Assembly: GCF_037975245.1 (NCBI RefSeq)
Contig: NC_092569.1
Location: forward strand, 20,577,001-20,641,000
DNA: 64,000 nucleotides
Origin: Apostichopus japonicus
Lineage: Eukaryota > Echinodermata > Holothuroidea > Aspidochirotida > Stichopodidae
Reading direction: 5' to 3'
A program made the position numbers and the translations under genes. Position 1 is the first letter of the stretch, and each line of letters starts with the position of its first letter. The notes below the pieces were generated by a model. The model saw only the letters and a list, made by a program, of their open reading frames with translations, did no database searches and was not told the DNA's origin. This document shows, one piece after another, positions 29,049 through 64,000 of the stretch.

Positions 29049-29109
29049 ATGTATTTAAAAGGAGTATTATTGTTAATCTTGCTTGCAGTTTCGCACATCA
29101 AAACTGAAA
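29049..29109 (+). CDS. FREP copy 1 signal-peptide exon
   Basis: A 61-bp exon encoding MYLKGVLLLILLAVSH and four more residues, a typical secretion signal with a Leu-rich core, ending in phase 1 at GTAAGC. The intact gene and the copy at 62117 begin with signal exons of the same end phase. Confidence 0.75.
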
Positions 29110-29941
29110 GTAAGCTTTATTAATATTAATTATTTTATAACATTACTTTTGGTATGATAAATATACAACGAGGTTATTTAATTTGAGTGTGTTTCTAGCT
29201 AAATGGCCCTTTTGTAATGTAAGTGTTATATATTGTGCCAATACCATTACTTCACTGCAGCTGTGCGTACATGTGTTCCTTGATAAGGTCGTTTTCAGCC
29301 AGCTGAAAAGATTTGCAGTATATAAACATAACTTAATTTGTATGAGAAGGTTATAATAAGTTATATTTTGAAACAATATAAACGTAGCGGAAGTGAACAT
29401 GAAATAACAGCTACCGTGACATTCTATGAAGTAGAATAGACAGCTAGTGTTGTATTCGGCACATATTTGGCCATACTCTAGAGATCAATTGTGAAACTAA
29501 CCAACTCTAGAGATCAATCGGGAAACAAACCAACTGAAAGTCATTTGTGAATCCTAAATCCCGATCTCGAAAGAGATACTTTAAAAAGACTCTGTTAAAC
29601 GAAATTGAAGTAAACGACAAAGGCAAATAAATGTATCTCGATAGGCTGGTTACTTTAAACAGATTTTTAGTTCCCTTGTGAACTTCTTCAGACGTGACTA
29701 CAGTTAAGTAAAAATTGAAAACAAGTTAAATAAACTTGCAATAATAATTAATCTTTTTCTATTTTAACAACTATTTTAGACACCTTCAAATGCACTCCTT
29801 TTTTTGTGATAAGGCTCCTTTTGGTCTTGTTAAGTGATGTTAATAATTTGCTTGAAAAAAGGCAAATTAAAATGTATAATTCTTAATAATGTTTCAAAAT
29901 TCAAGTTTCGTGTATTTTAAAAATTTTCCTTCACCTGTCAG

Positions 29942-30001
29942 GCAAACCGTCCAATTCAACCACAGTGCAGGACAATTACCAAACAGGTGATTATACAACA
30001 G
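29942..30001 (+). CDS. FREP copy 1 Ser/Thr linker exon
   Basis: A 60-bp exon after a CACCTGTCAG acceptor, phase 1 to phase 1, encoding SKPSNSTTVQDN and YQTGDYTT. The donor is GTAAATA. Length, phase and the Thr-Thr ending match the linker exons of the other copies. Confidence 0.7.
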
Positions 30002-30422
30002 GTAAATATACTATAGTATTTATTAGCTGCATACCTCTATTCAATTCTGACCAAAGTTCACGTAATCAGACTAACATGTTAGATAGGTGACTTTCATAAG
30101 GAACATTACCCAATTCGACGATGCAAAGAGTGTGTATAGTTCTCAATGTATACCTTTTTTACAAAGAATGACACAAACGCCATATCATTATTAATTTGGA
30201 ATCAAACTCTCTAAATAAAATACGGTTGTTCATGCAATTTGCGTTAACTTAAAGTTTAATTACAATTCTCAGATTTCTTTGGACATAATACTGTCCTCGA
30301 TTAGAGGGAATAAAATAAAAGTTTGTTTAAGGTATTGATGAGGAAGTTGGTGTATAAATCGTCAATTTATGCCGCAAACGCTTCTCCATCTTTCCTTAAA
30401 TACACAACAACTACAGCTATAG

Positions 30423-30631
30423 AGGGCGACATGTCCATCTTATATGGTTATGATGAACTGCACATGTCAAGCCACTTGTCAAGATCCAGAAGGACGATAT
30501 GGTTTCTGTAGCAACTTCACAAATGGTGCACAATGTATTTGCCCAGATGGTTTGTTTTATACGGTTATAACGACTGCGTACCCCCACAGGGTTGCAGATG
30601 TAACTATGACTACCAGAAATTCGTAGTACCA
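30423..30631 (+). pseudogene. TIL domain exon remnant with frameshift
   Basis: The frame encodes ATCPSYMVMMNCTCQ, ATCQDPEG and CICPDGLFYT. After a one-base loss near 30563 it continues in the next frame as NDCVPPQGCRC and KFVVP to a GTGAGT donor in phase 0. The cysteine order matches the TIL exon at 41995-42209. A TAG lies in frame at 30420-30422, and no nearby AG gives the phase-1 start the intact gene uses. Confidence 0.8.
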
Positions 30632-30699
30632 GTGAGTACGGTATATCTTTTTACAAAGAAATGTACAAGGCTGGTTTTTTAAATAACCACCATAGTTTC

Positions 30700-31320
30700 C
30701 CCGTATAATACATTCCTGAGCATTTTATTTAAACATACCATTGTGTGTTAACGACGTTACATCGACACACTTGCAATCAAATCTCGAAATCCCTCAACCC
30801 TAAAATAAAAATCGTATAAGAATTTAATGCGCGTGGTGACTGCTATACATACGGTATGTACCTACATGTTGGCTTACATTGCACTGACCAATCAGCTTTG
30901 CTTTCTCTAGTTACTGGATGGTTCGTTATAAATTATAAACAATTGGGTAAGGATATATACTACAAAGCTCTCGTAAGCAAGTTTTCCCTAGCCAGGGGCA
31001 TCTCTATGGCAGGGGAAACAACTCCTCAAACATTATTTTCCGACGGTCGTCATCTTATTAGGGCAGTCAGAGGAGTCTCGTTTTTTTTATTTTTCGGGGG
31101 GGGGGGGACTGCAACATTTCAGATAAATTATTTTCTGTCATGCCAAATGCGACGTTAGTCGGGATTAAATTGGGGTTGGTCAGGATAATCATCACATATT
31201 TCGGGGAAAAACTCCTAAACTTGTGTAAAAACTTCTATAATCTCTTATAGTACCAACCAAAAGCATATAGTCAATGGTGTTATAAATGAAGTCTTTCTAC
31301 ACACTGAGCTCTACGTAATT
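30700..31320. other. no feature seen between FREP copy 1 remnants
   Basis: A G-run lies near 31098-31108. No EGF or fibrinogen exon was found where the intact gene has them. An unrelated insertion is possible. Confidence 0.4.
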
Positions 31321-31494
31321 ATGAGGGATATATGGCATAACTTAATGCACGGTATACGGTATAACTTAATGCACGAACATGAAACAGTTGTGAGATGTTA
31401 TGATGGGTATGGGAGAAGTTTGACCGGTGGTGTGGAAAGGCCACCGCATCTTCCAATGCCGAGTGGAAAATCATTGTTCGTAAAACATAGGTGC

Positions 31495-31685
31495 TTTCAT
31501 GGCCCTCTCACTGGCTGCGTTGACGGGCCCTGAATGGAGATTACAACTCATCTGACCAAACTGGAGAATGCGTTTTTGATAAAGCAAACAATGAACACTT
31601 CTGTGACATTAAGAAAACAGAAATGAGCTTAAAACCATTGATTTCCTTAACCTATGTGAACATTAAAAGAATATCATGTTTGTGA
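31495..31685 (+). pseudogene. fibrinogen-domain C-terminal remnant
   Basis: The frame from about 31530 reads LNGDYNSSDQTGECVF, then DIKKTEMSLKPL. It aligns with the end of the intact FREP (NFNGRYGEPWKAGLCIY, then DIAATEMKIKPL). The stop that follows KPL in the intact gene is absent and the frame runs on to 31685. The preceding segment, HGPLTGCVDG, lies in another frame with a TGA. Confidence 0.65.
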
Positions 31686-34141: not shown

Positions 34142-34223
34142 ATGGCAAACTTTGCCAATCGGAATCTTGCAATAACTGCTGTCTTACTTTATGCTAATAT
34201 CGTCCACATTTCGCTTGCTATGG
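34142..34223 (+). CDS. intact FREP exon 1, signal peptide
   Basis: 82 bp encoding MANFANRNLAITAVLLY and a further hydrophobic stretch to SLAM. Ends in phase 1 at GTAAGG. The copy at 62117 has an exon 1 of the same length and phase. Confidence 0.85.
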
Positions 34224-37200
34224 GTAAGGTTTGATTATTTTAATTTTGTTTTATACATTTGGTTTATAATGTAAAAGGCGTATCAACTAAGATCTTCCAT
34301 TAACTTAAAGCTAACTTGTCTGCTTATATAACTTGTATTAATGTACCATGATTTTAAAGTTTATCTTTCTCAAACAACTTTCTTATGAAAGTTGTAACAC
34401 ATAGGTACACTTGCAGAAAAATACACTCTCTTGAATATTGCGTTGCTTGTTATCTGGAATTACATCTCGCCCAATATGTTGCTGCCAGCGAGCACGGGCT
34501 TCTGGTCTAACCACAGTGATGATAACAGCTAATATATCTGATATAAAATTATTCTAGACCAACCTTATGATGTACTGTTGTGATTGAAATGTAACGAGCT
34601 TCCCTGACAACCGATTCACATAGAGATTACAGTAATTACTGTAAATGTTTAAGTTTTTTACCACAGTAAAAATTAGGTCGTGCTGATAAATCGGTAGCAT
34701 GTGCTATTAGGATTACAGTAAGAACTGAGGATACATGTAATCCACAAAACTGCATTAACTGGATTTGTTGGGATTAAACATATCCTTAGATCCCACTGTG
34801 ATCCTAATAGCACATGCTACCGATTTATAGCACGATCCGGTGTTTACTGTGGTACAAAATTTGAAGATTTATAGTAGATACTGTGTTCTCTGTGTGTATG
34901 GGTGTCTCTGAGGTATAAGGCAGTTTTGGTGATGAGAGGTGATGAAGATTAGTGTATAGAAAGTCTTGGTTTTCATTTTTTTCATTCTCTTATTACGTGC
35001 CTTTGTTCTTTAAAACAAACAGGCATATGCGAGTTCGAGAATTACATGAAAGGTCTCTCCCATCGGAATCCTCAATTAAGTGGTAACTTTATTTATTTTT
35101 ACACATTCTTAGCTGCTATTTATTCAAATTGGTTTAGCTGGGTTTTTGGTATGAGACTTATCTGTTATCCGTTCTTTTTCTTGATAAATACGTTATGAAG
35201 CAAAAACAACACAATTGTCAAATGTAACTTGTGAATAAGAAATCATTGTGATAGACAACTCAGACAACAATCTAACGAAAATCCTCTTCCGTGTGAGAGA
35301 TGCTGTTGTTCAAAAGTTACAATAGGGCATTGTCATTTTGTCATTTGTGATGTCATTGCTCTTCTATGTTTCCTTTTTTTCAAAGTTTCAATGTAAAGTG
35401 TGACATCACATCTTGACAATGAAACCAATAACCTCGTGAACTCTTATTAATAACTTCAATGTTTTAAATTCCTATTTTTTTTCATAACCTGTCCATATTA
35501 CATGGATAAAAATGTTAATAAACTACAAGTAAATAAAGGATATAGTTTGACAGTTCAAACCGTAGTTAGATGATACATATCTATAGGCTTGTTCCAGTCG
35601 TGTTTGTACTCTTAATCTCTTAATCTTCTCCGTAACGTCTGTTACATATGGTCAAGATGCTCTCTTTCCACCCCTGTCAATCTTCTGCAGCTCTTCTCAC
35701 ATCGGACCAGCTTCTCCAGCCATTCTTGTCTCTCTCTTTAGTTGCTGTCCTTCTCCAAGTCGTCTTGGGTCTGCCAACCTTCCTCCTTCCTTCTGGTGCC
35801 CATTCCATTGCTACTCTTGCATGATTTCCTGTCTCCTTCCTCATAATATGACCAATCCAATTCCATCTGCGTCTCCGTATCTCTACACTTATTCTATTTA
35901 TGCCTGTTTGCTGCATAATTCTGTCATTGCTAACTAGTTCGGTCCATGGTATCTTCAGTATTCTCCGTATGCACTTGAACTGAAAAGCATCCAACTTTTG
36001 CTCCTCTGTCTTTGTCACTTTCCATGCTTCACTTCCATATAACAGCACTGATCTTACAAGCGTTTTGAATAGTGTTAGTTTTGTCTTTCTGCCTATTGCA
36101 TCATTTGTCAATATTCTTCTTAGGTTTCTAAATGCACCACGTTTTTTTTTAACTCTTCAGTTTGAGCATTGTTTAGAATTTTACAGCAATCTTAGTAATA
36201 CATTGATCCAAGCTATTTACAGTAGGATACAGCCGGTAATTTATTTAGCGTAAATAAATTAGCATTCACTGTTGCAAAGCATATATTTGTGTTAATTTTG
36301 TACTATGCTGATAGTACTTGATAGTGCATCCGTTAGAAATGTTATATTTATCCGCTACACTGGTAGAGTTTGCTTTCAAAGAATGAAAGGAAGAAGTTCA
36401 AATTCATTCTGGAAATATCCAATTTAATGTAAACATGTAGCTAGACGACAGACAATAAATTTAAAATCAGTCTTTATTCACGAGTTACTGGTTATATTAA
36501 GTTTTTTCCTTTTTGTTCAACTATTCGAAGACCATTTTCTTAGTACTATGATTGTTGTTAGATTCAATTATGTATTTGTATATAGGCCTTAAGCTTTGGT
36601 ATCATGTTTCTGGAAAAAGATCATTTAATATACCAAACTGTTTTAGTAGTTTTATAATATAGGCATTGTCTCCTCTCGCTCATTATATTAAACTGTTATT
36701 TTACCAAACTCTTGTAATATATAATTTCTTTAACCGACTGTGGAAAATTCTAGTCAGAGGGGTTTAATCGGAAGGAATGTTTACGTCCGTTTCCGCATCA
36801 GGACTCTCAAGTTACATCCTAACAATAAAAAATCATACATTACCATTTACTCTTAAAGCCTTTTAATATTTTCTTGGTAAATAAAATCACCGTGTATTTT
36901 AACATGATGCTCTTTTTATATTCTTGACTGTTCGGACGAATGTCGACAGCCAATTTTCTGCAATCCACGAGTTCACCAGTAACCACAGCAATAACGACAA
37001 AAGGTATGGCCAAAGCTGCACACATCTTACATTTCCAACATGGATAAAAATTAATCGACATACAAATTTATTTGATTTAGACTATAGTATATTTCTGTAT
37101 TCATTGTTCTGCTTCGTTCCCCTCAGTTATGTATAACTCAAGTTAAGCAACTTTGCATAACATAAGTTTACAGAGCTATAAAAAAAATCTTGTAAACTAT

Positions 37201-40200
37201 AGCACATACAAAAGAAAAGTAAGTTTAATTGATAAGCATATATGGACTGAATTTTAGTGAATATTTCCTTAAATTCAGAACTGCAGAACTTAACTCTATT
37301 GTCGTAAGACTAAGTATATGGTACCATTTTTCTCGAGTTGAGTATGATGTGCGGTTGACGGAAGGGCCAGGTTCTGTGTTTTACTTTAAGCACATTTCTT
37401 ATCCTCCTGTATAAACTCAGTAGGTGAGGCTTAAATCCATTTTCACTGTTACTACTAGTATACGTGTACAACATCGCACTACCACAATATATGAATGATC
37501 GATGATCTTCTTCAGTATTCTTCGTATACACTTGAACTGAAAAGCATCCAACTTTTGCTCCCCTCTCTTTGTCACTTTCCATGCTTCACTTCCATATAAC
37601 AGCACTGATCTTACAAGCGTTTTGAATAGTGTTAGTTTTGTCTTTCTGCCTATTCCAACATTTGTCCATATTCTTCTTAGGTTTCTAAATTCACCACGTG
37701 CCTTTCCTAATGTGTTTTTGATGTCTTCTGTACCTCCTCCATCTTTACTGACTTTGGCCACCAGATATACGAACTCTTCTACGTCTTCCACTTCTATGTA
37801 GTTGATTTTCAGTGGCGCATCTACCCTGTTATTCATTCTCATGTGCTTACAGTTCTTCACATTCATATTCAAACCGATTCTTCCTGCCATCTCTTCTACT
37901 TTCTCTGTCTTTTTCTGGATGTGGTCTTGCTTTGCCGTGTTTGTACAAGTAACATTTAAACTCTGATAGCTCCCAAGCGAGATGCGAGCTAGTTGGAAAA
38001 GCTGTTTCTCATTAATATTTCTGTCAGTATAAATGATGATTGTTGTAGTTTTTTCCCTTTGTGTTATGAAAAATATGTAAACAAGAATAAAACAATTATA
38101 TAAATGTTTTGGTCTAAGTGATAACACAAACTCTTAACTGTTTGAATAATAACAGCGGCTATCTGTACCTGTTCCACATCAGAGAGCCCGTTTTCCCAAA
38201 AAAAATATATGTCAACTTGACTGTTCACTTCTCTTCAAAGTGATGTATTTCTAAGTCCTTGTTAATATATTTCAGGAATTTGTATACATGTTTTGTATAC
38301 TAAATGAAAACGGAAGTCCTTGCAATTCTATTTGAGTAATTTGTATATAAGTATTTGATGTAATGTGAATGAAAGTGGAAGTCTTTGTTTATCTTCTATC
38401 ACTATTTCGTGTATAAACGCAATTGCATAATACAACATGTATTACGAAGACGATTCTTGAGTCGAGTTTCTATAACTCGTACCTTACATAAATGGTTATA
38501 TATGTTTTTGTTTGAAAATTAACATTATAGTTTATTCTTCAATCAAATATGTTTGTTTTTAGAAGAAAGTGGAAACAATGGTATGTTTGATGAGACTTCT
38601 CCAGAGGTTTATCCTATGATGTCAAACACAGGTAGGTTCCTCTTAAATTAAATTAAGTAAGAATTTTGTAAACTCAACTAAAGTCTATTATAAAGAGTTG
38701 TACGTTTATACTTTACAATAGGAAAGTTTGTAATATCTTTTTGTGTGAGTAAAAACTTAAGTATTTATATCTTCCGAATGTTCTGGACAGGTATCTGCCA
38801 CGTAACGAAAAAAATAAATCAACTATCTGCTAAATTTATTGTCCTTCTAATATATTGTACTGGAATTTGCAGGTATAGTAATTTCTATTATAAAATGATG
38901 TTAAGCTATAATTAATCATAGAGAAATGATGGATAAAATCAATTCAGTCACATATTAATCACATAAAGAAAAAAAAAATGTTTAAATTGATAGTATCATC
39001 TGACGCTTTGGTCACTTACATTGGAACATTGACGTAATTTATTTACAGATGTTAGTTGTGATAAACGTGAAAGGCAGTTGCAGTAATGCTGAGACAGTTT
39101 CTCAGTATATTATAACTCGCTCATTCTTCTTTCAACAAAAGGAAATTTGTAGTTTCATCATAGAGCAATAACAATAACATTTTGATTGATTTCGACAATG
39201 TTAATGATGACCGTGTTTAAACTTTTCTACATCATACAAGTATTGATTGATTTGATTATTGCAGGAGTGTAGGAAATGCAATAGATTTGGCTACATTTAC
39301 GTGTCAGCGTTTCACGGCGGTGCTGACAGTGACAAGTCAGTTATGAAACGTTTATAACACTATGCATTATTCTTAACGTCGATCAGAATACTATTATTCT
39401 GAATTTAAAACAAGATGGCAGAAGCCAAATATTGACATTTTCTTAGTTCACAACATATTGGCAATGCGGTAATGGAATGCGATGTAAAGCAGAAAACTCT
39501 CATTTAAATACATAACAAAACAAAATCAAACATTTAATTTAATATGAACATAAAGTCAAACATATAATCTGACCGATTTGTAACATGTATTTGACAAACC
39601 GAAATGCCGCTGTGCAAACAAAATATTCGAGTATTTGTAGTCTACAAAAGATAATACAACGTGTCAATAGTGTGCAGAGAGACACCTTCAATGCGTAGTT
39701 CCGTTTGGGTATCCGTATATTAGTCACTCTAATTTAATGGATTTTTTTAGCAAAATCACTTAGTTCAGATACAACAATTTTTTAGTAGTATTTTGGTTAG
39801 CTTAATAGAAGAATCTAAACGAATGTATACAATTTTGGACACCTAGATTTAGTCCTACAACATTTATGGACAAATATAAGCTAGCCAAGCCCATACGAAT
39901 GGACCTATATTTGAAGTCGGATATAATAATAAAAGTTACTCACTATTGTTGCGGGACTCATGCACTCATGCACTCATTGTTGCGGGACGAGCTATTCTAC
40001 ATAATGTAAATATAAGAAATCGTGGTAGATCGAGGTCGGAGTAAATAAACTTTTTCTTTCGTTACTGAAAATAACTATAGATAATTTTACACTCGATTAC
40101 AGATTCGACATCACCCAAGTCGACTTTACAGTCCTCAACGAAATCAATAACCACAACAGGTTGGTATTATAATATAATGCGCTGTGCAAATCACATATAT

Positions 40201-43200
40201 CAAAAGCTGTGCTGTGTTATCAGAGCTATGTATTTAGGCGATTTTTTTTTTGGTTCTGTTCCTGCCTATCGTTGCAGAATAGTTTTTTTTTACTTTTCAG
40301 TTGAAGCATTGTTTGGTATTTTACAGCAATCTTAGTAATACATTGATCCAAGCTATTCACAGTAGTAGAGTTTTCATTCAAAGAATGAAAGGAAAAAGTT
40401 CAAATTCATTCTGAAAATATCCAATTTAATGTAAACATGTAGCTAGACGACAGACAATAAATTTAGAATCAGCCTTTTAATATTTTCATGGTAAATAAAA
40501 TCACCGTGTATTTTAACGTGATGCTCTTTTTATATTCTTGACTGTTAGGGCGAATGCCGACAGCCAATTTTCTGCAATCCACGAGTTTACCAGGAACCAC
40601 AGCAATAACTACAGAAGGTATTGCCAAAGCTACACACATCTTACATTTCCTACATGGATAAAAAATATTCGACATACAAATTTATTTGATTTCAGACTAT
40701 TGTCTATTTCTGTATTCATTGTTCTGCTTCGTTCCCCTCAGTTATGTATAACTCAAATTAAGCAATTATGCATAACATAAGTTTACAGAGCTATACAAAA
40801 AAAAAATGTCTTGTAAAATATAGCACATACAAAAGTAAGGTAAACATGTAGCTAGACGTCATACAATTAATTTAGAATCAGTCTTTATTCACGAGTTACT
40901 GGTTATATTAAGTTTTTTCCTTTTTGTTCAACTATTCGAAGACCATTTTCTTAGTACTATGATTGTTGTTAGATTCAATTATGTATTTGTATATAGGCCT
41001 TTAGCTTTGGTATCATGTTTCTGAAAAAAAAGATCATTTAATATACCAAACTGTTTTAGTAGTTTTATAATATAGGCATTGTCTCTTCTCGTTCATTGTA
41101 TTTGACTGTTATTTTACCAAACTCTTGTAATATATAATTTCTTTAACCGACTGTGGAAATTCTAGTCAGAGGGGTTTAATCGGAAGAAATATATACGTCC
41201 GTTTCCGCATCAGGACTCTCAAGTTACATCCTAACAGTAAAAACTCATACATTACCATTTACTCTTAAAGCCTTTTAATATTTTCATGGTAAATAAAATC
41301 ACCGTGTATTTTAACATGATGCTCTTTTTATATTCTTGACTGTTAGGACGAATTTCGACAGCCAATTTTCTGCAATCCCCGAGTTCACCGGTAACCACAG
41401 CAATAACTACAGAAGGTACGGCCACAGCTGCACACATCTTACATATCCAACATGGATAAAAATTAATCGACATACAAATTTATTTGATTTCAGACTATTG
41501 TCTATTTCTGTATTCATTGTTCTGCTTCGTTCCCCTCAGTTATGTATAACTCAAGTTAAGCAACTTTGCATAACATAAGTTTACAGAGCTATAAAAAAAA
41601 TGTCTTGTAAAATATAGCACATACAAAAGAAAAGTAAGTTTAATTGATAGGCATAAATGGACTGAATTTTAGTGAAAATTTCCTTAAATTCAGAACTGCA
41701 GAACTTAACTCTATTGTCGTTAGACTAAGTATATGGTACCATTTTTCTCGAGTTGGGTATGATGTGCGGTTGACGGGAGGGCCAGGTTCTGTGTTTTATT
41801 TTAAGCACATTTCTTATCCTCCTGTATAAACTCAGTAGGTGAGGCTTAAATCCATTTTTCACTGTTACTACTAGTATACGTGTACAACATCGCACTACCA
41901 CAATATGTGAATGATCTAAGCAGCTGACACCGAAGGGAAACTTGCCTTAAAAAAACCCTGATGAAATATGACATATTCCATATTCCATTTTCAGGTGCGA
42001 CCACTACGCCACAATGTCCTTTGAATCAAGTCTTTGCTGACTGTGTATGCCAGGGTACATGTGAAGACCCTAATGGGTGGTTTGGCTGCCATATAAACTG
42101 TACTGGAGGAAGAACATGCGTTTGTCCAGCCGGCTTTCTATTACTCGGACAGAATTGCATACCGGAGAGTGCTTGTGGGTGTTATCACGAAACGGGAGGA
42201 GTCATACCGGTATTCTTAAACTGTTATTAGTATATTCATCATGTGCGTTCCTTTACAATCTTATCCACCAAAACAGTCGTCTTTGTCCCAACAAAGTAGC
42301 AGTAGTAGGGTTTTACAAAACACAGATAAAAAGTAAGTTGCTCTACTTGCCAATGTCACATATTTGAATTTCATTGACGGAGACAGTGGACATAGTAGGT
42401 GATATTAGACAAATGATGTCACCTTTGCTATTTATTTGCAATTGTCATGCTACTAGTAGCTTTTACTGTTCTGGTAAATATACTGAACAGATTTGAGATT
42501 CGATAGTGATCAACCTACGAATCTTATTAATTCACGAAGTAATTAATCTACAATGGACGACACAAAATACCTGTTGATCTTATGATAATTCATTCTCTCC
42601 TTCTGTTCTTAAATCATGAAGTTAAATTATAAACATAAAAAGTAGGATTAATCAAGCGATATATTAATGGCTGTTCATGTTTAATAAAAAAAAATCATAG
42701 TGAGACCCGTCTTATTCAATAATCAATCCAAATTTGTCGAAAGTGTGTGCGAGGGAGACTATGCGATGTTGGGATCATATTTGCTAACTATTTTGTGGAA
42801 CACACCTCCAAAAAAGAACTATAAACAAGCATATTGCTCCCCAGAGCCAATCAGAAGTGAAGCCAAGAACTTTCCAAGTAATACTCCGTCCACGCCCGGC
42901 CTGACTTAATCGAACACCTGTGCCCTCAAATATATCTGGACGGACTAAATAAAGCTCATATGAAAAACAGTTCCTTAAAGTTGTAATGTTTTACCTTGAG
43001 AACACACTAGAACACTATTCCAGAGATGTAACCTACGTAATATCATCAAAGTGGCATCACTATATTCATATTTATTCACTTTTCTCTGTATTAAGAATGG
43101 CGGATCGCGGATCGTGACCATGGACTGCACGGAAACATGCTCATGTGAGAATAACGTTCTTGTATGCATAAACTATACATGCAGTGAACATGCGATGTGC

Positions 43201-44766
43201 CAAAACCATAATGGCAACATATCGTGCGATTGCAACGTGAACTATATGGGAAATGGGACAGTATGTCAACGTGTACAGGACTGCCAAGATCTTTACGACA
43301 ATGGCGTAATCAGTGAAGGTTTTCACTTGATATACCCGCTTACATGGCCAGGGGAACCTTTCGAAGCTTATTGCAAAGACGGATGGACTGTAAGAAGACT
43401 TTCTTTTGAGTTTATGTCCATGATAGCTGTCGTTTTAAACAAGAGAAATAACATGTACCATACTACACATTGTACTCTATACCCCGCCCTGAAATGTATT
43501 ACGTGTGACTACGTTACCTACGTACTTCAACGTTAAAGAACAGATTGTTGAAGAAGTATTATTTTGTGCTTTTGTGGTAAACATGATGTAAACGAAGTGA
43601 AACTATATATTTCCAAGGAGCAGAAAAAACTTTGATAATATGGCTGGGCTGCAAATATCCACTTAGAAATGTGAGGGGAGATATATAGATCATTCATATA
43701 TTCCATACAAACATCACAGAAGTACTTTTCTTGATTAATCTGGCTTCAAGTGGACCGTGAATACTTCCTTAATGAGCCTCAACTAACAAGCAAACTGATA
43801 TCAACCTATTTTTTGGCTGTTGTTGTTTAGTTTTTTCAGCTCCGCGTCAGTCACCACGGTCCTTTTTATGGCTGGGATTTATACAGAAATGGCATCCGTA
43901 GAAGCGATTCTAATTCACATTGGCTAGGAAACGAAAAATTAGCCAACATAACTGCCCAACGGGACTACACCATGAGAATGGAATTTAGGAACAGCAGTAG
44001 TAACATTACCCACTATCTTCAGTATGATCTCTTTCGAATTGGTTCAGAAGTCAACAACTATGCACTAGAAGAGCTCGGCAGTTATACAGGCAGCTTGGGT
44101 GAGTAAAACATTTTTATCGTAGCCTATAATGCAATGCACGACATATGCCATGAACGAAATTTGTAAACCTTCATGATAGAGTGTGGAACCTGGTTTGTTG
44201 TGATCAACGATCGACTGGCACTTTCGATATTTAAGGAGCATTAGCATCGTATAAGAAAAAAACGTCAATTTTATCAAAATTTCTAAACATCGTCATCATT
44301 GTCGCCATCGTTATCTTCGTCATCTTTGTTTTCGTCTTCGTCTTCAATTGTCATTTTCATCGTCATTGTCATCCCCATCGTCACAATAGACGATGATGAG
44401 AGTTCTTTTAGTTTCGATTTTTCTTGGGAAAAAGAAATAAATTTACAAGAAATATGTATGTTTTTTTTTTTGCTGGTTACCTTTTCCTTCTCATTGTACA
44501 CAGAATATGACTACATGAGATATCATCATGGTGTTGGTTTTTCAACATATGACAGTGACAATGATAACAGTACATCACGAAAATGCACCCAACCACATCT
44601 TGCTGGCTGGTGGTACAATGGGTATGATAATTTTACATGTACTACAGCGAATTTCAATGGAAGGTACGGCGAACCGTGGAAAGCTGGACTGTGCATTTAC
44701 GACAGGGAACGAATGATTGCTGACTGCGATATTGCTGCAACTGAAATGAAAATCAAACCTCTCTGA
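34142..44766 (+). CDS. secreted TIL-EGF-fibrinogen-domain protein (FREP), complete gene of 8 exons
   Basis: Exons at 34142-34223, 35023-35082, 38563-38631, 40103-40159, 41995-42209, 43096-43389, 43840-44098 and 44504-44766 have good GT/AG sites and join in one frame of 432 codons plus stop. Domains: signal peptide (1-27), Ser/Thr/Asn-rich linker (28-89), TIL cysteine-rich domain (97-150), TILa-like segment (152-185), EGF (190-218), fibrinogen C-terminal domain (223-432). The fibrinogen part keeps the DSDND calcium site (362-366), the Cys pair around the WWYN motif (373 and 391) and the TEMKIKP end. FREPs, ficolins and tachylectins use this domain to bind acetylated sugars and microbial surfaces; binding here is inferred. 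TIL modules can inhibit proteases or serve as structural Cys-rich units. Several N-glycosylation sequons are present. An alternative is an extracellular-matrix role like that of tenascins. Confidence 0.85.
34659..34854. mobile_element. palindromic MITE, copy 2, in intron 1 of the FREP gene
   Basis: It begins TACCACAGTAAA and ends TTTACTGTGGTA. The arms continue inward, with only scattered mismatches, through TCGTGCTGATAAATCGGTAG and TAGCATGTGCTATTAGGAT for most of the element. It is predicted to form a hairpin of about 80 bp per arm. Homologous to 32738-32928. Confidence 0.85.
35023..35082 (+). CDS. intact FREP exon 2, N-terminal linker
   Basis: 60 bp, phase 1-1, acceptor AAACAAACAG, donor GTAACT. 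Encodes ICEFENYMKG and LSHRNPQLS. It has one Cys, unlike the three-Cys exon 2 of the copies at 50182 and 62373. Confidence 0.65.
35590..36141 (-). mobile_element. LINE 3' fragment (downstream piece)
   Basis: Minus-strand frame of about 144 codons, with blocks GRKTKLTLFKTLVRSV, LYGSEAWKVTK, QFKCIRRIL, RRRRWNWIGHIMRKE, PEGRRKVGRPKTTWRR and WRSWSDVRRAAED. It is the C-terminal part of a non-LTR retrotransposon reverse transcriptase protein of the RTE-like, endonuclease-RT type. Its upstream end stops sharply at 36141, where unrelated intron sequence begins. It lies in intron 2 of the FREP gene. Confidence 0.85.
36142..37500. repeat. FREP intron block, copy A
   Basis: About 1.36 kb closely similar to 40283-41916 (intron 4 of the same gene) and to 63320-64000 (the equivalent intron of the next copy). 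It sits inside a LINE, between two directly repeated LINE pieces. Small frames at 36840-37061 (minus) and 36924-37136 (plus) recur in the other copies because the DNA is duplicated. Confidence 0.85.
37509..37945 (-). mobile_element. LINE fragment (upstream piece)
   Basis: Minus-strand reverse transcriptase region after the catalytic motif. It reads through KTEKVEEMAGRIGLNM, EVEDVEEFVYLVAKVSKDGG, GKARGEFRNLRRI and GRKTKLTLFKTLVRSV to QFKCIRRILK. The last roughly 186 bp (37509-37690 side) repeat the start of the fragment at 35955-36141 at about 95% identity by eye. The element is 5' truncated. Confidence 0.85.
38563..38631 (+). CDS. intact FREP exon 3, linker
   Basis: 69 bp, phase 1-1, acceptor TTGTTTTTAG, donor GTAGGT. 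Encodes EESGNNGMFDETSPEV and YPMMSNT, an acidic, Ser/Thr-containing linker. No domain. Confidence 0.7.
40103..40159 (+). CDS. intact FREP exon 4, Ser/Thr linker
   Basis: 57 bp, phase 1-1, acceptor CGATTACAG, donor GTTGGT. Encodes DSTSPKSTLQSSTKS and ITTT. Near-identical to 63161-63217: three base changes in 57, two of them changing residues. Likely O-glycosylated stalk. Confidence 0.85.
40283..40840. repeat. FREP intron block, copy B1 (internally deleted)
   Basis: Same sequence as copy A and B2, but about 400 bp are missing at about 40472 (AATTTAGAATCAG joined to CCTTTTAATATT). Confidence 0.85.
40841..41916. repeat. FREP intron block, copy B2
   Basis: Follows B1 directly in the same orientation, restarting at TAAACATGTAGCTAGACG, a sequence also found inside B1. 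The pair arose by tandem duplication followed by a deletion in B1. Confidence 0.85.
41995..42209 (+). CDS. intact FREP exon 5, TIL cysteine-rich domain
   Basis: 215 bp, phase 1 to 0, acceptor CCATTTTCAG, donor GTATTC (weak). Encodes CPLNQVFADCVCQGTC, then GCHINC, TCVCPAGF and NCIPESACGC. This is the ten-cysteine order of trypsin-inhibitor-like (TIL) domains, with CGC leading into a TILa-like segment that continues in the next exon. The homologous remnant is at 30423. Confidence 0.9.
43096..43389 (+). CDS. intact FREP exon 6, TILa-like, EGF and start of fibrinogen domain
   Basis: 294 bp, phase 0-0, acceptor CTGTATTAAG, donor GTAAGA. Encodes the rest of the TILa-like Cys segment (MDCTETCSCENNVLVC), then an EGF module (CSEHAMCQNHNG, SCDC, NYMGNGTVC). 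The fibrinogen domain starts at DCQDLYDNG and ends FEAYCKDGWT. The GG usually before GWT in fibrinogen domains is shortened here. Confidence 0.9.
43840..44098 (+). CDS. intact FREP exon 7, middle of fibrinogen domain
   Basis: 259 bp, phase 0 to 1, acceptor TTTTTTCAG, donor GTGAGT. Encodes FYGWDLYRNG, HWLGNEKLANITAQRDY, THYLQYDLFRIGSE and LGSYTGSLG. The WLGNE, QYDLFRIGSE and GSYTG blocks are standard in fibrinogen C-terminal domains. The region before WLGN is diverged. Confidence 0.93.
44286..44400. repeat. imperfect trinucleotide repeat (ATC/GTC) in intron 7
   Basis: A run of CATCGTC-like triplets just upstream of the last exon. Open frames across it are artefacts. Confidence 0.8.
44504..44766 (+). 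CDS. intact FREP exon 8, end of fibrinogen domain
   Basis: 263 bp from a TCATTGTACACAG acceptor in phase 1 to TGA. Encodes GFSTYDSDNDNSTSRKC (calcium-site loop), AGWWYNGYDNFTC, ANFNGRYGEPWKAGLC and ATEMKIKPL. Compared with ficolin-type domains, the stretch between the NFNG motif and the TEMKIKP end carries two extra Cys (409 and 420), possibly a new disulfide. Confidence 0.93.
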
Positions 44767-59806: not shown

Positions 59807-60066
59807 CGAAGCTCACTGTGTAACTTTCAATAGTTCTTTCGTATTTCGTTGCCTCGGAACTAATTCGTAACCGATTGTATTGAAGATATGCACTGTCATC
59901 GTTGGCATTGTTGAACCAAATATCAATTCTTAGTTGATGATCTGTCTGAGCTGTTATGACATGCAATATCTCATTTCCAAGCCAGAAACTAGAATCGAGA
60001 TCACCAAATCCATCCCTTTAGTTATTCCAAGTCTCAAGAAATGAAATAGAAGAAGTCTCTATAATG
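59807..60066 (-). pseudogene. fibrinogen-domain middle exon with nonsense codon
   Basis: The frame reads ISFLETWNN, stop, RDGFGDLDSSFWLGNE, HVITAQTDHQLRIDIWF, AYLQYNRLRISSE and IESYTVSFG. The donor GTACTT leaves phase 1, as in exon 7 of the intact gene. The TAA at 60020-60018 sits where related domains have Tyr (WxxYRDGFG). The CTACAG acceptor at 60067 gives phase 2; an alternative TATAGAG acceptor gives the expected phase 0 and a start at about 60056. A single base error in the assembly would remove the stop. Confidence 0.8.
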
Positions 60067-62116: not shown

Positions 62117-62198
62117 ATGAGTGCAATTCAGTTTTCGTGTATCTTTCATTGCTTCCTTATTGGTATTTGCATTTATTCTTCGATGGCGGGAAGTGTTG
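62117..62198 (+). CDS. FREP copy 3 exon 1, signal peptide
   Basis: 82 bp encoding MSAIQFSCIFHCFLIG and ICIYSSMAGSV, phase 1 at GTAAGT. Same length and phase as exon 1 of the intact gene, but the peptide is unrelated in sequence. Confidence 0.8.
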
Positions 62199-63217
62199 GT
62201 AAGTAGAGTAACGGAAAGTAGATCTAACATTTCATCTCATTACTTAGACGTTGTGAATTTAAAGAAAAAGCATGAATCAGCAAACTCGGATCAGTTATTA
62301 TACTTGTAGCAAATATTTGTTATGCAACTGCATCGATGGTGATCTTTAAACTAATGGTTCTTATGATTTCAGCATTTTTCAAGTGCACAAAACGACACTC
62401 AATTAAAGATGCCGTTATGCCTTGTGGTGGTAACTGTAGCAATCAAATGGAGCTAATACCGAGAACCGGTAAGTAACAGTTGCTATTAAGGTAATCTAAG
62501 AAGTTATAAATATAGAAAAGTAATACATGTATCAAAGTAAAATCTGATTTTTCTTTCACTGCAAAAAGAACAGTGATTTCATTTAAAGCTTTATTTACAT
62601 ATTATATTCAAGCGTATATGTCATATGCATAATAGTAATTTGAATGAACTGTTTGGTGAATATATAGAGAACCCCGAAATAACTGAATCTTAGTTAAACG
62701 CTTTGCTAATTCATGTTAAATTATAGTGATGATATATTTACAACCATCCTCTATAAATAAAACTATATTTGGCATTCAACCCTCTGAATACTGGCCCAAA
62801 GGGAAAGGAAGAAAAATCACCAAGACATCAAATAAATCTGTTTTAGAAGGAAATGTATATATGCATATTTTCCACTTATTTTTTTTTATGACAGCAGATG
62901 TTCAGTTATCTGTTTCTTTACCCAGACTCACTGATATAGAAGATAGAATACTAGATAGACGACTAGAAATTACTCACCAGTATTGTTGCGGGACGAACTT
63001 TTCTACAGCATGTTCATATAAAATATTGTAGTAGATGGAGGTCGGAGCAAATTAACTTTACTCTTCTTTTCTTTCGTTAATGAAAATTACTGAAATGTTC
63101 CAAGTGTTCACAATTATTTATATTCAAGTTAGGAAGAAATAATTTAACACTCGATTACAGATTCGACATCATCCAAGTCGACTTTTCAGTCCTCAACAAA
63201 ATCAATAACCACAACAG
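62117..63217 (+). CDS. FREP copy 3, 5' part (continues beyond the window)
   Basis: Exons 62117-62198 (signal peptide), 62373-62468 (three-Cys) and 63161-63217 (Ser/Thr linker) all keep phase 1 and one open frame. An extra phase-1 exon after the GACAGCAG acceptor at about 62896 is possible, but I see no matching donor. The right part duplicates the intact gene's region 39940-41340, so TIL, EGF and fibrinogen exons are expected just outside the window. No disabling change is seen in the visible exons. Confidence 0.75.
62373..62468 (+). CDS. FREP copy 3 exon 2, three-cysteine module
   Basis: 96 bp, phase 1-1, acceptor ATGATTTCAG, donor GTAAGT. Encodes FFKCTKRHSIKDAVMPC, GGNCSNQMEL and IPRT. Homologous to 50182-50259 on the minus strand. 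Confidence 0.8.
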
Positions 63218-64000
63218 GTTGGAAGTTAGTTTTATAATACGCTGTGCAAATCATATATATCAAAAGCGGTGCTCTGTTATCAGAGCTATGTATTTCGGGC
63301 ATTTGTTGATGTTCTGCAGAATAGTTTCTATTGACTCTTCAATTTGACCAATGTTGAGTATTTTACAGCAATCTTAGTAATACATCATATCCAAGCTATC
63401 CAAGCTGATATATTCATCAGCTTCATTGGTAGAGTTTCCATTCAAAGAATGAAAGGGAAAAAAACATCAAATTTATTCTGAAAATATCCGATTTACTGTA
63501 AGCATGTAGCTAGACGACAGAAAATAAATTTAGAATCAGTCTTTATTCACGAGTAACTGGCTATATTAAGTTTTTTCCTTTTTGTTCAACTATTCGAAGA
63601 CCATTTTCTTAGTACTATGATTATTGTTAGATTGACCTATGCATTTGTATATAGGCCTTTAGCTTTGGTATCATGCTTCTGGAAAAATATCCTTTACCAT
63701 ACCAAGCTGTTTTAGTAGTTTTATAACATCAGCATAGTCTCTTCTCGCTTATTGTTTTAAACTTTTATTTTACCAAACTTTTGTTTTATATAATTTCTTC
63801 AACCGACTGTGGAAAAAGCTACTCAGAGGGGTTTGAACGGAAGGAATGTATACGTCCGTTTCCCCATCAGGACTCTCGAGTTACATCCTAACATTATAAA
63901 ATCATTCTTAAGGTTTACTCTCAATATTTTCTTGGTAAATAAATTCACCATTTATTTTAACGAAATGCTCTTTTCATATTCTTGACTGTTAGGACGAATG
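62965..64000 (+). repeat. segment shared with the intact FREP gene (right partner)
   Basis: Matches 39940-41340, including linker exon and intron 4. The block from about 63320 corresponds to intron copy A/B2 and runs to the window end. Confidence 0.85.
63161..63217 (+). CDS. FREP copy 3 linker exon
   Basis: 57 bp, phase 1-1, acceptor CGATTACAG, donor GTTGGA. Encodes DSTSSKSTFQSSTKS and ITTT; differs from 40103-40159 at three bases (Pro to Ser, Leu to Phe, one silent). Confidence 0.85.

Follow-up and report, generated by a model that had tools for sequence, protein, structure and literature searches.

A TIL-TILa-EGF stalk joined to a fibrinogen head in a large gene family of the sea cucumber Apostichopus japonicus

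The FREPs of snails form a multigene family with a head/stalk design in which one or two immunoglobulin superfamily (IgSF) domains precede a C-terminal fibrinogen head. Homologous heads occur in ficolins, where they follow a collagen-like region, as well as in techylectin-5A, FIBCD1, the tenascins and the angiopoietins. TIL domains followed directly by TILa are known from a different set of proteins, FCGBP, MUC5AC/5B and VWF, which have the order VWD-C8-TIL-TILa and in which, for FCGBP and the mucins, VWD is the core of assembly. Gene A, described here, lies on the forward strand of a 64,000-nucleotide stretch of the Apostichopus japonicus genome (C9:20577001-20641000, called the window below; assembly of 671,581,487 bases in 35 contigs) and combines traits of both sets. 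The fibrinogen head, the multigene family and the head/stalk plan are shared with the FREPs of snails and other invertebrates, but the gene A product has no immunoglobulin match and its stalk is TIL-TILa-EGF. Its N-terminal region also differs from those of ficolins, techylectin-5A, FIBCD1, tenascins and angiopoietins, and the collagen-like region of ficolins is not matched in it. With FCGBP, the mucins and VWF it has TIL and then TILa in common, FCGBP being the best solved match for that part, but it carries an EGF domain and a fibrinogen head and lacks a VWD or C8 match. On the basis of its predicted domains the gene A product is a fibrinogen-related protein (FREP/FReD) in the broad sense.

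An expansion of FREPs in A. japonicus was reported in 2017, arranged in tandem and mainly on linkage group LG02 (PMC5638244), and FREPs of this species were found to be up-regulated in visceral regeneration (PMC5638244, section 17). The genes described here agree with that expansion in species, in their relation to fibrinogen and in their tandem arrangement; they lie mostly on contig C9. Neither trypsin inhibitor nor TIL, TILa or EGF is mentioned in the main text of that paper. In other sea cucumbers a FREP is induced by lipopolysaccharide in the intestine of Holothuria glaberrima (PMC2702171), the coelomic fluid of H. tubulosa contains many fibrinogen-like proteins (PMC12119288), and FCGBP, MUC5A/B and ficolin-1-A are among the top genes of a coelomocyte cluster in H. 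glaberrima (PMC11925454). These three reports concern FREPs and fibrinogen-like proteins or FCGBP and mucin genes generally and are not matched to a TIL-TILa-EGF-fibrinogen architecture. No description of that architecture was found in the literature on FREPs or on such domain combinations, supplements and subscription papers lying outside this scope; the listed titles that join "TIL domain" with "fibrinogen" deal with ticks, mosquitoes, worms and a mite, and nothing was found that joins "TILa", "fibrinogen" and "EGF". What is already known, then, is the expansion of FREPs in A. japonicus, while the anatomy, meaning the TIL-TILa-EGF stalk and the exon plan, is new here.

Gene A consists of eight exons that extend over 10.6 kb. 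They are listed in window positions together with comparisons to B and C, two neighbouring copies of the gene:

34142..34223, forward strand: exon 1, with the start codon and, judged by eye, a probable signal peptide
35023..35082, forward strand: exon 2, short and N-terminal with one Cys, kept in gene C
38563..38631, forward strand: exon 3, linker that varies among copies, found in B and C, with 9/69 differences between A and C; not found in loci L016 and L017
40103..40159, forward strand: exon 4, Ser/Thr-rich linker, with 0/57 differences between A and C and a copy at 63161-63217
41995..42209, forward strand: exon 5, TIL domain and initial TILa residues (Pfam TIL 34.5 bits for the exon alone)
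43096..43389, forward strand: exon 6, remaining TILa, EGF and about 38 initial fibrinogen residues in a single open frame (Pfam and whole-protein match)
43840..44098, forward strand: exon 7, middle of the fibrinogen domain, its 5' part specific to the head type and its 3' end the same in A and C
44504..44766, forward strand: exon 8, C-terminal part of the fibrinogen domain with the DSDND motif, stop codon included

Joined, the exons amount to 1,299 nt or 432 codons and a stop; their translation has no internal stop, and all introns are GT-AG with phases 1-1-1-1-0-0-1. The preliminary description of this DNA had proposed just such an uninterrupted frame of eight exons with matching phases, and the proposal is borne out by the joins, by the open frame and by the recurrence of the plan in gene C; judged from these features, the gene model appears real. 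The predicted precursor begins with a hydrophobic stretch resembling a signal peptide (by eye) and contains 27 Cys and nine N-glycosylation sequons; the product is putatively secreted.

Pfam matches to the joined protein give the order TIL (residues 97-150, 28.9 bits, cut-off 24.5), TILa (151-205, 36.3 bits, cut-off 27), EGF_3 (187-218, 26.4 bits) and Fibrinogen_C (PF00147, 222-431, 98.8 bits, cut-off 22), with TILa directly following TIL. EGF_3 overlaps the end of TILa and remains slightly below its cut-off of 28.5 bits in the joined protein, but when exon 6 is scanned alone both EGF_3 (31.2 bits) and TILa (32.3 bits) pass, which confirms the order that had been given from the letters alone. 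Fibrinogen_C is not matched by exon 6 scanned alone, the fibrinogen start there being short. The ten cysteines of the TIL domain (97, 106, 108, 112, 121, 125, 131, 133, 144 and 150) and the DSDND motif in the fibrinogen domain, both noted previously, are present, the latter as a putative calcium- or metal-binding site by motif. No immunoglobulin family is found among the seven Pfam matches up to E 10, there is no VWD or C8 among the Pfam matches, and collagen is absent both as a Pfam match and, by eye, as a Gly-X-Y run. The earlier view that a single gene here carries a stalk unusual for a fibrinogen-domain protein is supported.

The arrangement of exons bears on whether the two halves of the protein belong together. 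Exon 6 codes for residues 162-259 and with them for most of TILa, EGF and the start of the fibrinogen domain, which makes the union of TILa/EGF with fibrinogen independent of predicted splicing. The TILa match starts in exon 5 and crosses the exon 5/6 junction, so that TIL and fibrinogen exons in separate mRNAs, the case named beforehand as a refutation, are unlikely; for most of TILa and for EGF such a separation is impossible. The same order recurs in four distant loci (L027-L030), each of which has a TIL exon, then an exon with TILa, EGF and the fibrinogen start, then a later fibrinogen exon; in the fetched stretches both later fibrinogen exons are seen in L027 and L030 and the middle one only in L028 and L029. 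In the single exons of L028 and L029 TILa, EGF_3 and Fibrinogen_C are each above the Pfam cut-off. In that of L030 TILa and Fibrinogen_C are above theirs but EGF_3, with 18.5 bits against 28.5, is not, while in that of L027 none passes (EGF_3 24.0 bits, TILa 20.0 bits, no Fibrinogen_C match).

Two of these distant loci have a further peculiarity. The TIL exon of L028 (C9:17226900-17231300, minus strand) and that of L029 (C20:22629000-22633200) are also preceded, on their own strand, by exons for the start and the middle of a fibrinogen domain; the one for the middle is some 200 bp away from the TIL exon, and in between no exon for a fibrinogen tail is recognised. It is possible that these loci are genes of the form half-fibrinogen-TIL-TILa-EGF-fibrinogen.

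The introns of gene A contain repeated DNA. Intron 2 measures 3,480 nt compared with 1,122 nt in gene C, and on its minus strand open stretches at 35677-36156 and 37417-38133 resemble the end of a reverse transcriptase of the kind found in retrotransposons without long terminal repeats (by eye). A repeat of about 1.1 kb occurs at 36425-37500 and 40836-41916, in introns 2 and 4, with 95.8% identity between the two, and in part at 63406-64000.

Gene A is not alone. A search of the genome with the 98-residue protein of exon 6 gave 1,177 candidates, of which 150 were scored and all 150 match, the weakest at E 4.5e-15; the corresponding search with the TIL exon gave 565 candidates, and again all of the 150 scored places match (weakest E 3.2e-10). 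The scored exon-6 places are found on C9 (138), C20 (6), C5 (2), C22 (2), C1 (1) and C7 (1), and their identity to gene A falls into two groups, with 15 places at 92-100% and the rest at 37-54%. A TIL place is located upstream on the same strand within 2.5 kb of 110/150 scored exon-6 places, compared with 0/150 for TIL downstream on the same strand and 0/150 for TIL on the opposite strand. Extending the distance to 5 kb changes the numbers to 112/150 upstream, 0/150 downstream and 1/150 on the opposite strand. Seen from the other side, 111 of the 150 scored TIL places have an exon-6 place within 2.5 kb downstream. As both lists are limited to the 150 places scored, the 40 unpaired exon-6 places may still have a TIL; the counts are of places rather than independent genes and include near-identical duplicates and broken copies. 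By these matches gene A is a member of a very large sea cucumber family of about 100 or more places, mostly on a single chromosome. The preliminary description treated it as a single protein, which is incomplete in view of the 110 paired places and of the FREP expansion within which they fall.

Other fibrinogen genes seem to share the contig. Fibrinogen domains gave 2,729 candidates and 169 matches, and among the 150 places listed 106 are on C9, where they cluster at, for instance, 11.4-11.9, 16.1-16.7 and 23.4-23.9 Mb. Only 3/150 exon-6 places have a listed fibrinogen place within 5 kb downstream, a figure which has no bearing on the presence of a head in each copy as the list is dominated by other places. 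Other fibrinogen subfamilies thus seem to be expanded on C9 too, with few of their listed places downstream of exon 6.

The close copies, 15 in number (A, the neighbours B and C, and L015-L026), allow a comparison of stalk and head. Rates were estimated for 11 of them, with L022, L023, L025 and L026 left out because they have a stop, lack exons or are frameshifted; the values given come from 15 pairs out of 55. The stalk is defined as the TIL-TILa-EGF codons and the head as fibrinogen exons 7-8. Between A and C the stalk has a synonymous rate (dS) of 0.182, a nonsynonymous rate (dN) of 0.028 and a ratio of the two (omega) of 0.16, and the head has dS 0.151, dN 0.171 and omega 1.13. Expressed as differences, nonsynonymous to synonymous changes are 64/14 in the head and 8/12 in the stalk (Fisher p 3.9e-4). 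The other pairs among the three neighbours agree, with omega 0.50 in the stalk and 1.19 in the head for A and B, and 0.14 and 1.15 for C and B, the last value coming from 3 synonymous and 14 nonsynonymous changes. Relative to introns 6 and 7, which differ between A and C at 68/807 positions, nonsynonymous change is higher in the head (64/417 sites, p 3.1e-4) and lower in the stalk (8/289 sites, p 6.6e-4). Within the A type the head omega is 0.75 (A and L015) and 0.58 (A and L016). Between the two head types the fibrinogen head differs far more than the TIL-TILa-EGF stalk.

A complete and open eight-exon set is found in 7/15 close copies (A, C, L015, L018, L019, L020 and L021). Gene C, at 89268-97051 on the window scale and hence past the window end, has a homologous counterpart to each of the eight exons in the corresponding place, GT-AG introns and an open frame of 433 codons. 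The fetched stretches of the other 8/15 show exons lacking or altered, a stop or a frameshift. L016 and L017 lack a recognisable exon 3 and exon 4; in L022 TIL is interrupted by a stop and exon 4 is matched only in part; exons 1, 2, 7 and 8 are not seen in the stretch of L023. Exons 1-2 are not seen in L024 and exons 1, 2 and 5 not in L025 and L026; in all three the match to exon 4 breaks the exon order, and exon 7 of L026 is frameshifted as well. A homologue of exon 1 is found in gene C and L015-L022 and not in L023-L026, and exons 7 and 8 are seen in 14/15 copies, the exception being L023. On C9 the pairs L019/L020, L016/L017 and L025/L026 lie at about 35.02-35.07 and 35.60-35.64 Mb and share 99.4-99.8% identity along stretches of 3.8 to 9.3 kb; either a large segment was duplicated recently or the assembly retains two haplotypes.

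Exons 3-8 of neighbour B are found past the window end, and candidate 5' exons within the window differ from those of A. This and two remnants make up the remaining features of the window:

62117..63217, forward strand: candidate 5' end of gene B, made up of two exons that do not resemble those of A (62117-62198 and 62373-62468) and a Thr-rich one at 63161-63217; the assignment to B is presumptive
29049..31640, forward strand: decayed relative with a TIL exon that carries a frameshift (30432-30670), a fibrinogen tail at 31530-31640 and, judged by eye, exons that may code for a signal peptide and a Thr-rich stretch
59808..60029, reverse strand: relic fibrinogen-domain exon with a stop (tblastn E 4e-8)

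The possible signal-peptide exon at 62117-62198 has 82 nt and so the length, as well as the phase, of exon 1 with an unlike sequence, and the 96-nt exon at 62373-62468 has three Cys; neighbour B may accordingly have another N-terminus. The decayed relative was matched by tblastn with E 1e-8 for TIL and 1.8e-4 for the fibrinogen tail.

We give an even chance to an explanation in which the gene A product is a secreted fibrinogen-related recognition protein with a conserved stalk and a varied head, one of a large family. The Ser/Thr-rich linker, probably O-glycosylated, and the disulfide-rich TIL-TILa-EGF unit would serve as a stable spacer and perhaps also in assembly, and the C-terminal head would bind its ligand in tissue or in the coelomic fluid. 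Judging from the family, from its size and from the variation of the head, the most likely ligands would be glycans or glycoproteins of microbes or of altered self. Tandem copies would have been duplicated and have exchanged sequence in a way that kept the stalk nearly constant and varied the head. To the exon structure, family, domain order and stalk/head contrast read from the DNA this explanation adds secretion, a ligand class, assembly and a role in defence, which we infer. Recognition, suggested in the preliminary description too, is the leading interpretation.

Several observations weigh against it. The A-type heads (A, L015, L016 and L017) and the C-type heads are separated by a single divergence, so that repeated pairs are not independent; the dS of the head is high as well (0.15). 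Intron 4 differs between A and C at 226/1,530 positions (14.8%), about the level of the head and above the 7.9-9.1% of the other introns, and the contrast of head with intron therefore hinges on the use of introns 6 and 7. Variation is not confined to the head, as omega reaches 1.61 in the linker (A and C, 12 changes). Nor does it extend over the whole of the head, since the end of exon 7 has no differences between A and C (0/80 nt at 44016-44095), while the two densest bins at its start have 14/40 and 9/40; an identical end beside a divergent start makes it likely that exchange between paralogs shaped exon 7 into a mosaic. The up-regulation of A. japonicus FREPs in regeneration (PMC5638244, section 17) suits other roles too. 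Binding of acetylated sugars by the head is not to be assumed either. The acetyl pocket of ficolins, techylectin and FIBCD1 has a Cys-His pair, and what we take to be the matching position is here Cys391-Thr392.

Positive selection on the head is not claimed, given its high dS, the equal divergence of intron 4 and the mosaic exon 7.

A different role would be that of a matrix or growth-factor-like protein related to tenascins, angiopoietins and FGL, acting in gut regeneration and wound repair with the stalk anchored in the matrix and the head signalling to host receptors. The best solved match of the head is in fact angiopoietin-1 (E 9.2e-23), followed by FGL1, ficolin-3, FIBCD1, tenascins and techylectin-5A, and FREPs rise in visceral regeneration of this species (PMC5638244, section 17), though which FREPs do so is not matched to the architecture of gene A. 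A family of more than 100 copies with a faster-changing head suits a single receptor ligand poorly, and we regard this role as unlikely.

The stalk itself leads to another candidate, a component of a mucus or adhesive network comparable to FCGBP, in which disulfide or mucin contacts would involve TIL-TILa, and mucus or surface glycans would be bound by the head. Residues 91-206 match FCGBP with E 8e-10 in a whole-protein search of solved structures. Searched as a single sequence, the TIL domain found 13 sequences among solved structures, mostly of EGF type (LDL receptor, fibrillin) and no TIL protein; it was replaced by a profile of eight TILs from the family, which ranks FCGBP first (E 9.7e-8), then MUC5AC (1.3e-3), fibrillin (0.0026), MUC5B (0.038), BSTI (0.05), VWF (0.16) and anticoagulant protein 5 (1.0), the values for FCGBP and the mucins summing several TIL copies, which overstates their gap to the inhibitors. 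The Ser/Thr-rich linker and the odd number of Cys in the precursor, 27, would fit a network as well, but no VWD, the core of FCGBP assembly, is matched by Pfam in the gene A protein, and the proposal appears rather improbable.

Restraint of proteases, the second half of the preliminary interpretation, has fared less well than recognition. It supposes that TIL inhibits a serine protease and that the head delivers the inhibitor to a surface. The domain has the ten-Cys pattern of TIL-type (Ascaris) inhibitors such as BSTI, three residues stand between Cys5 and Cys6, and BSTI and anticoagulant protein 5 were matched, if weakly. FCGBP, MUC5AC and the EGF protein fibrillin nevertheless outrank BSTI in the profile search, with the reservation on summed copies just given, and the presence of TILa after TIL is a feature of VWF-type proteins and not of BSTI. 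The Cys5-Cys6 stretch, which we take to be the reactive-site position of TIL inhibitors, reads HIN among close copies but YNN, NRD, EDT and KSD among distant ones, so that the putative loop varies between subfamilies. The rank of FCGBP and MUC5AC before BSTI and the unconserved loop point to a structural TIL-TILa unit of the mucin/FCGBP kind rather than an inhibitor. Protease inhibition as the main role is for the same reasons not favoured and we consider it very unlikely; a recognition molecule is more likely than a protease inhibitor.

That exons of neighbouring genes were joined by mistake might be suspected from their spread over 10.6 kb, the repeats in introns 2 and 4 and the eight-exon set that is incomplete, altered or broken in 8/15 close copies, but this is scarcely credible and is rejected because a single exon codes for the fibrinogen start together with EGF and TILa, with all three above the Pfam cut-off in L028 and L029, and because exon order and splice sites recur among tandem copies.

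Returning to recognition by secreted proteins with varied heads, a wider proposal can be made tentatively, and it would have to be judged more likely to fail than to hold: sea cucumbers may possess a diversified recognition system of their own with more than 100 secreted proteins, in which a near-constant TIL-TILa-EGF stalk presents heads varied by selection and tandem exchange. This would be an echinoderm counterpart of the snail FREPs on a different stalk, including variants whose TIL exon is preceded by half of a fibrinogen domain. The family joins TIL-TILa units of the mucin/FCGBP type to fibrinogen heads, a union not found in the literature searched. With a stalk shared by many members and heads that vary more, the choice between a regeneration factor and diversified immune recognition becomes testable.

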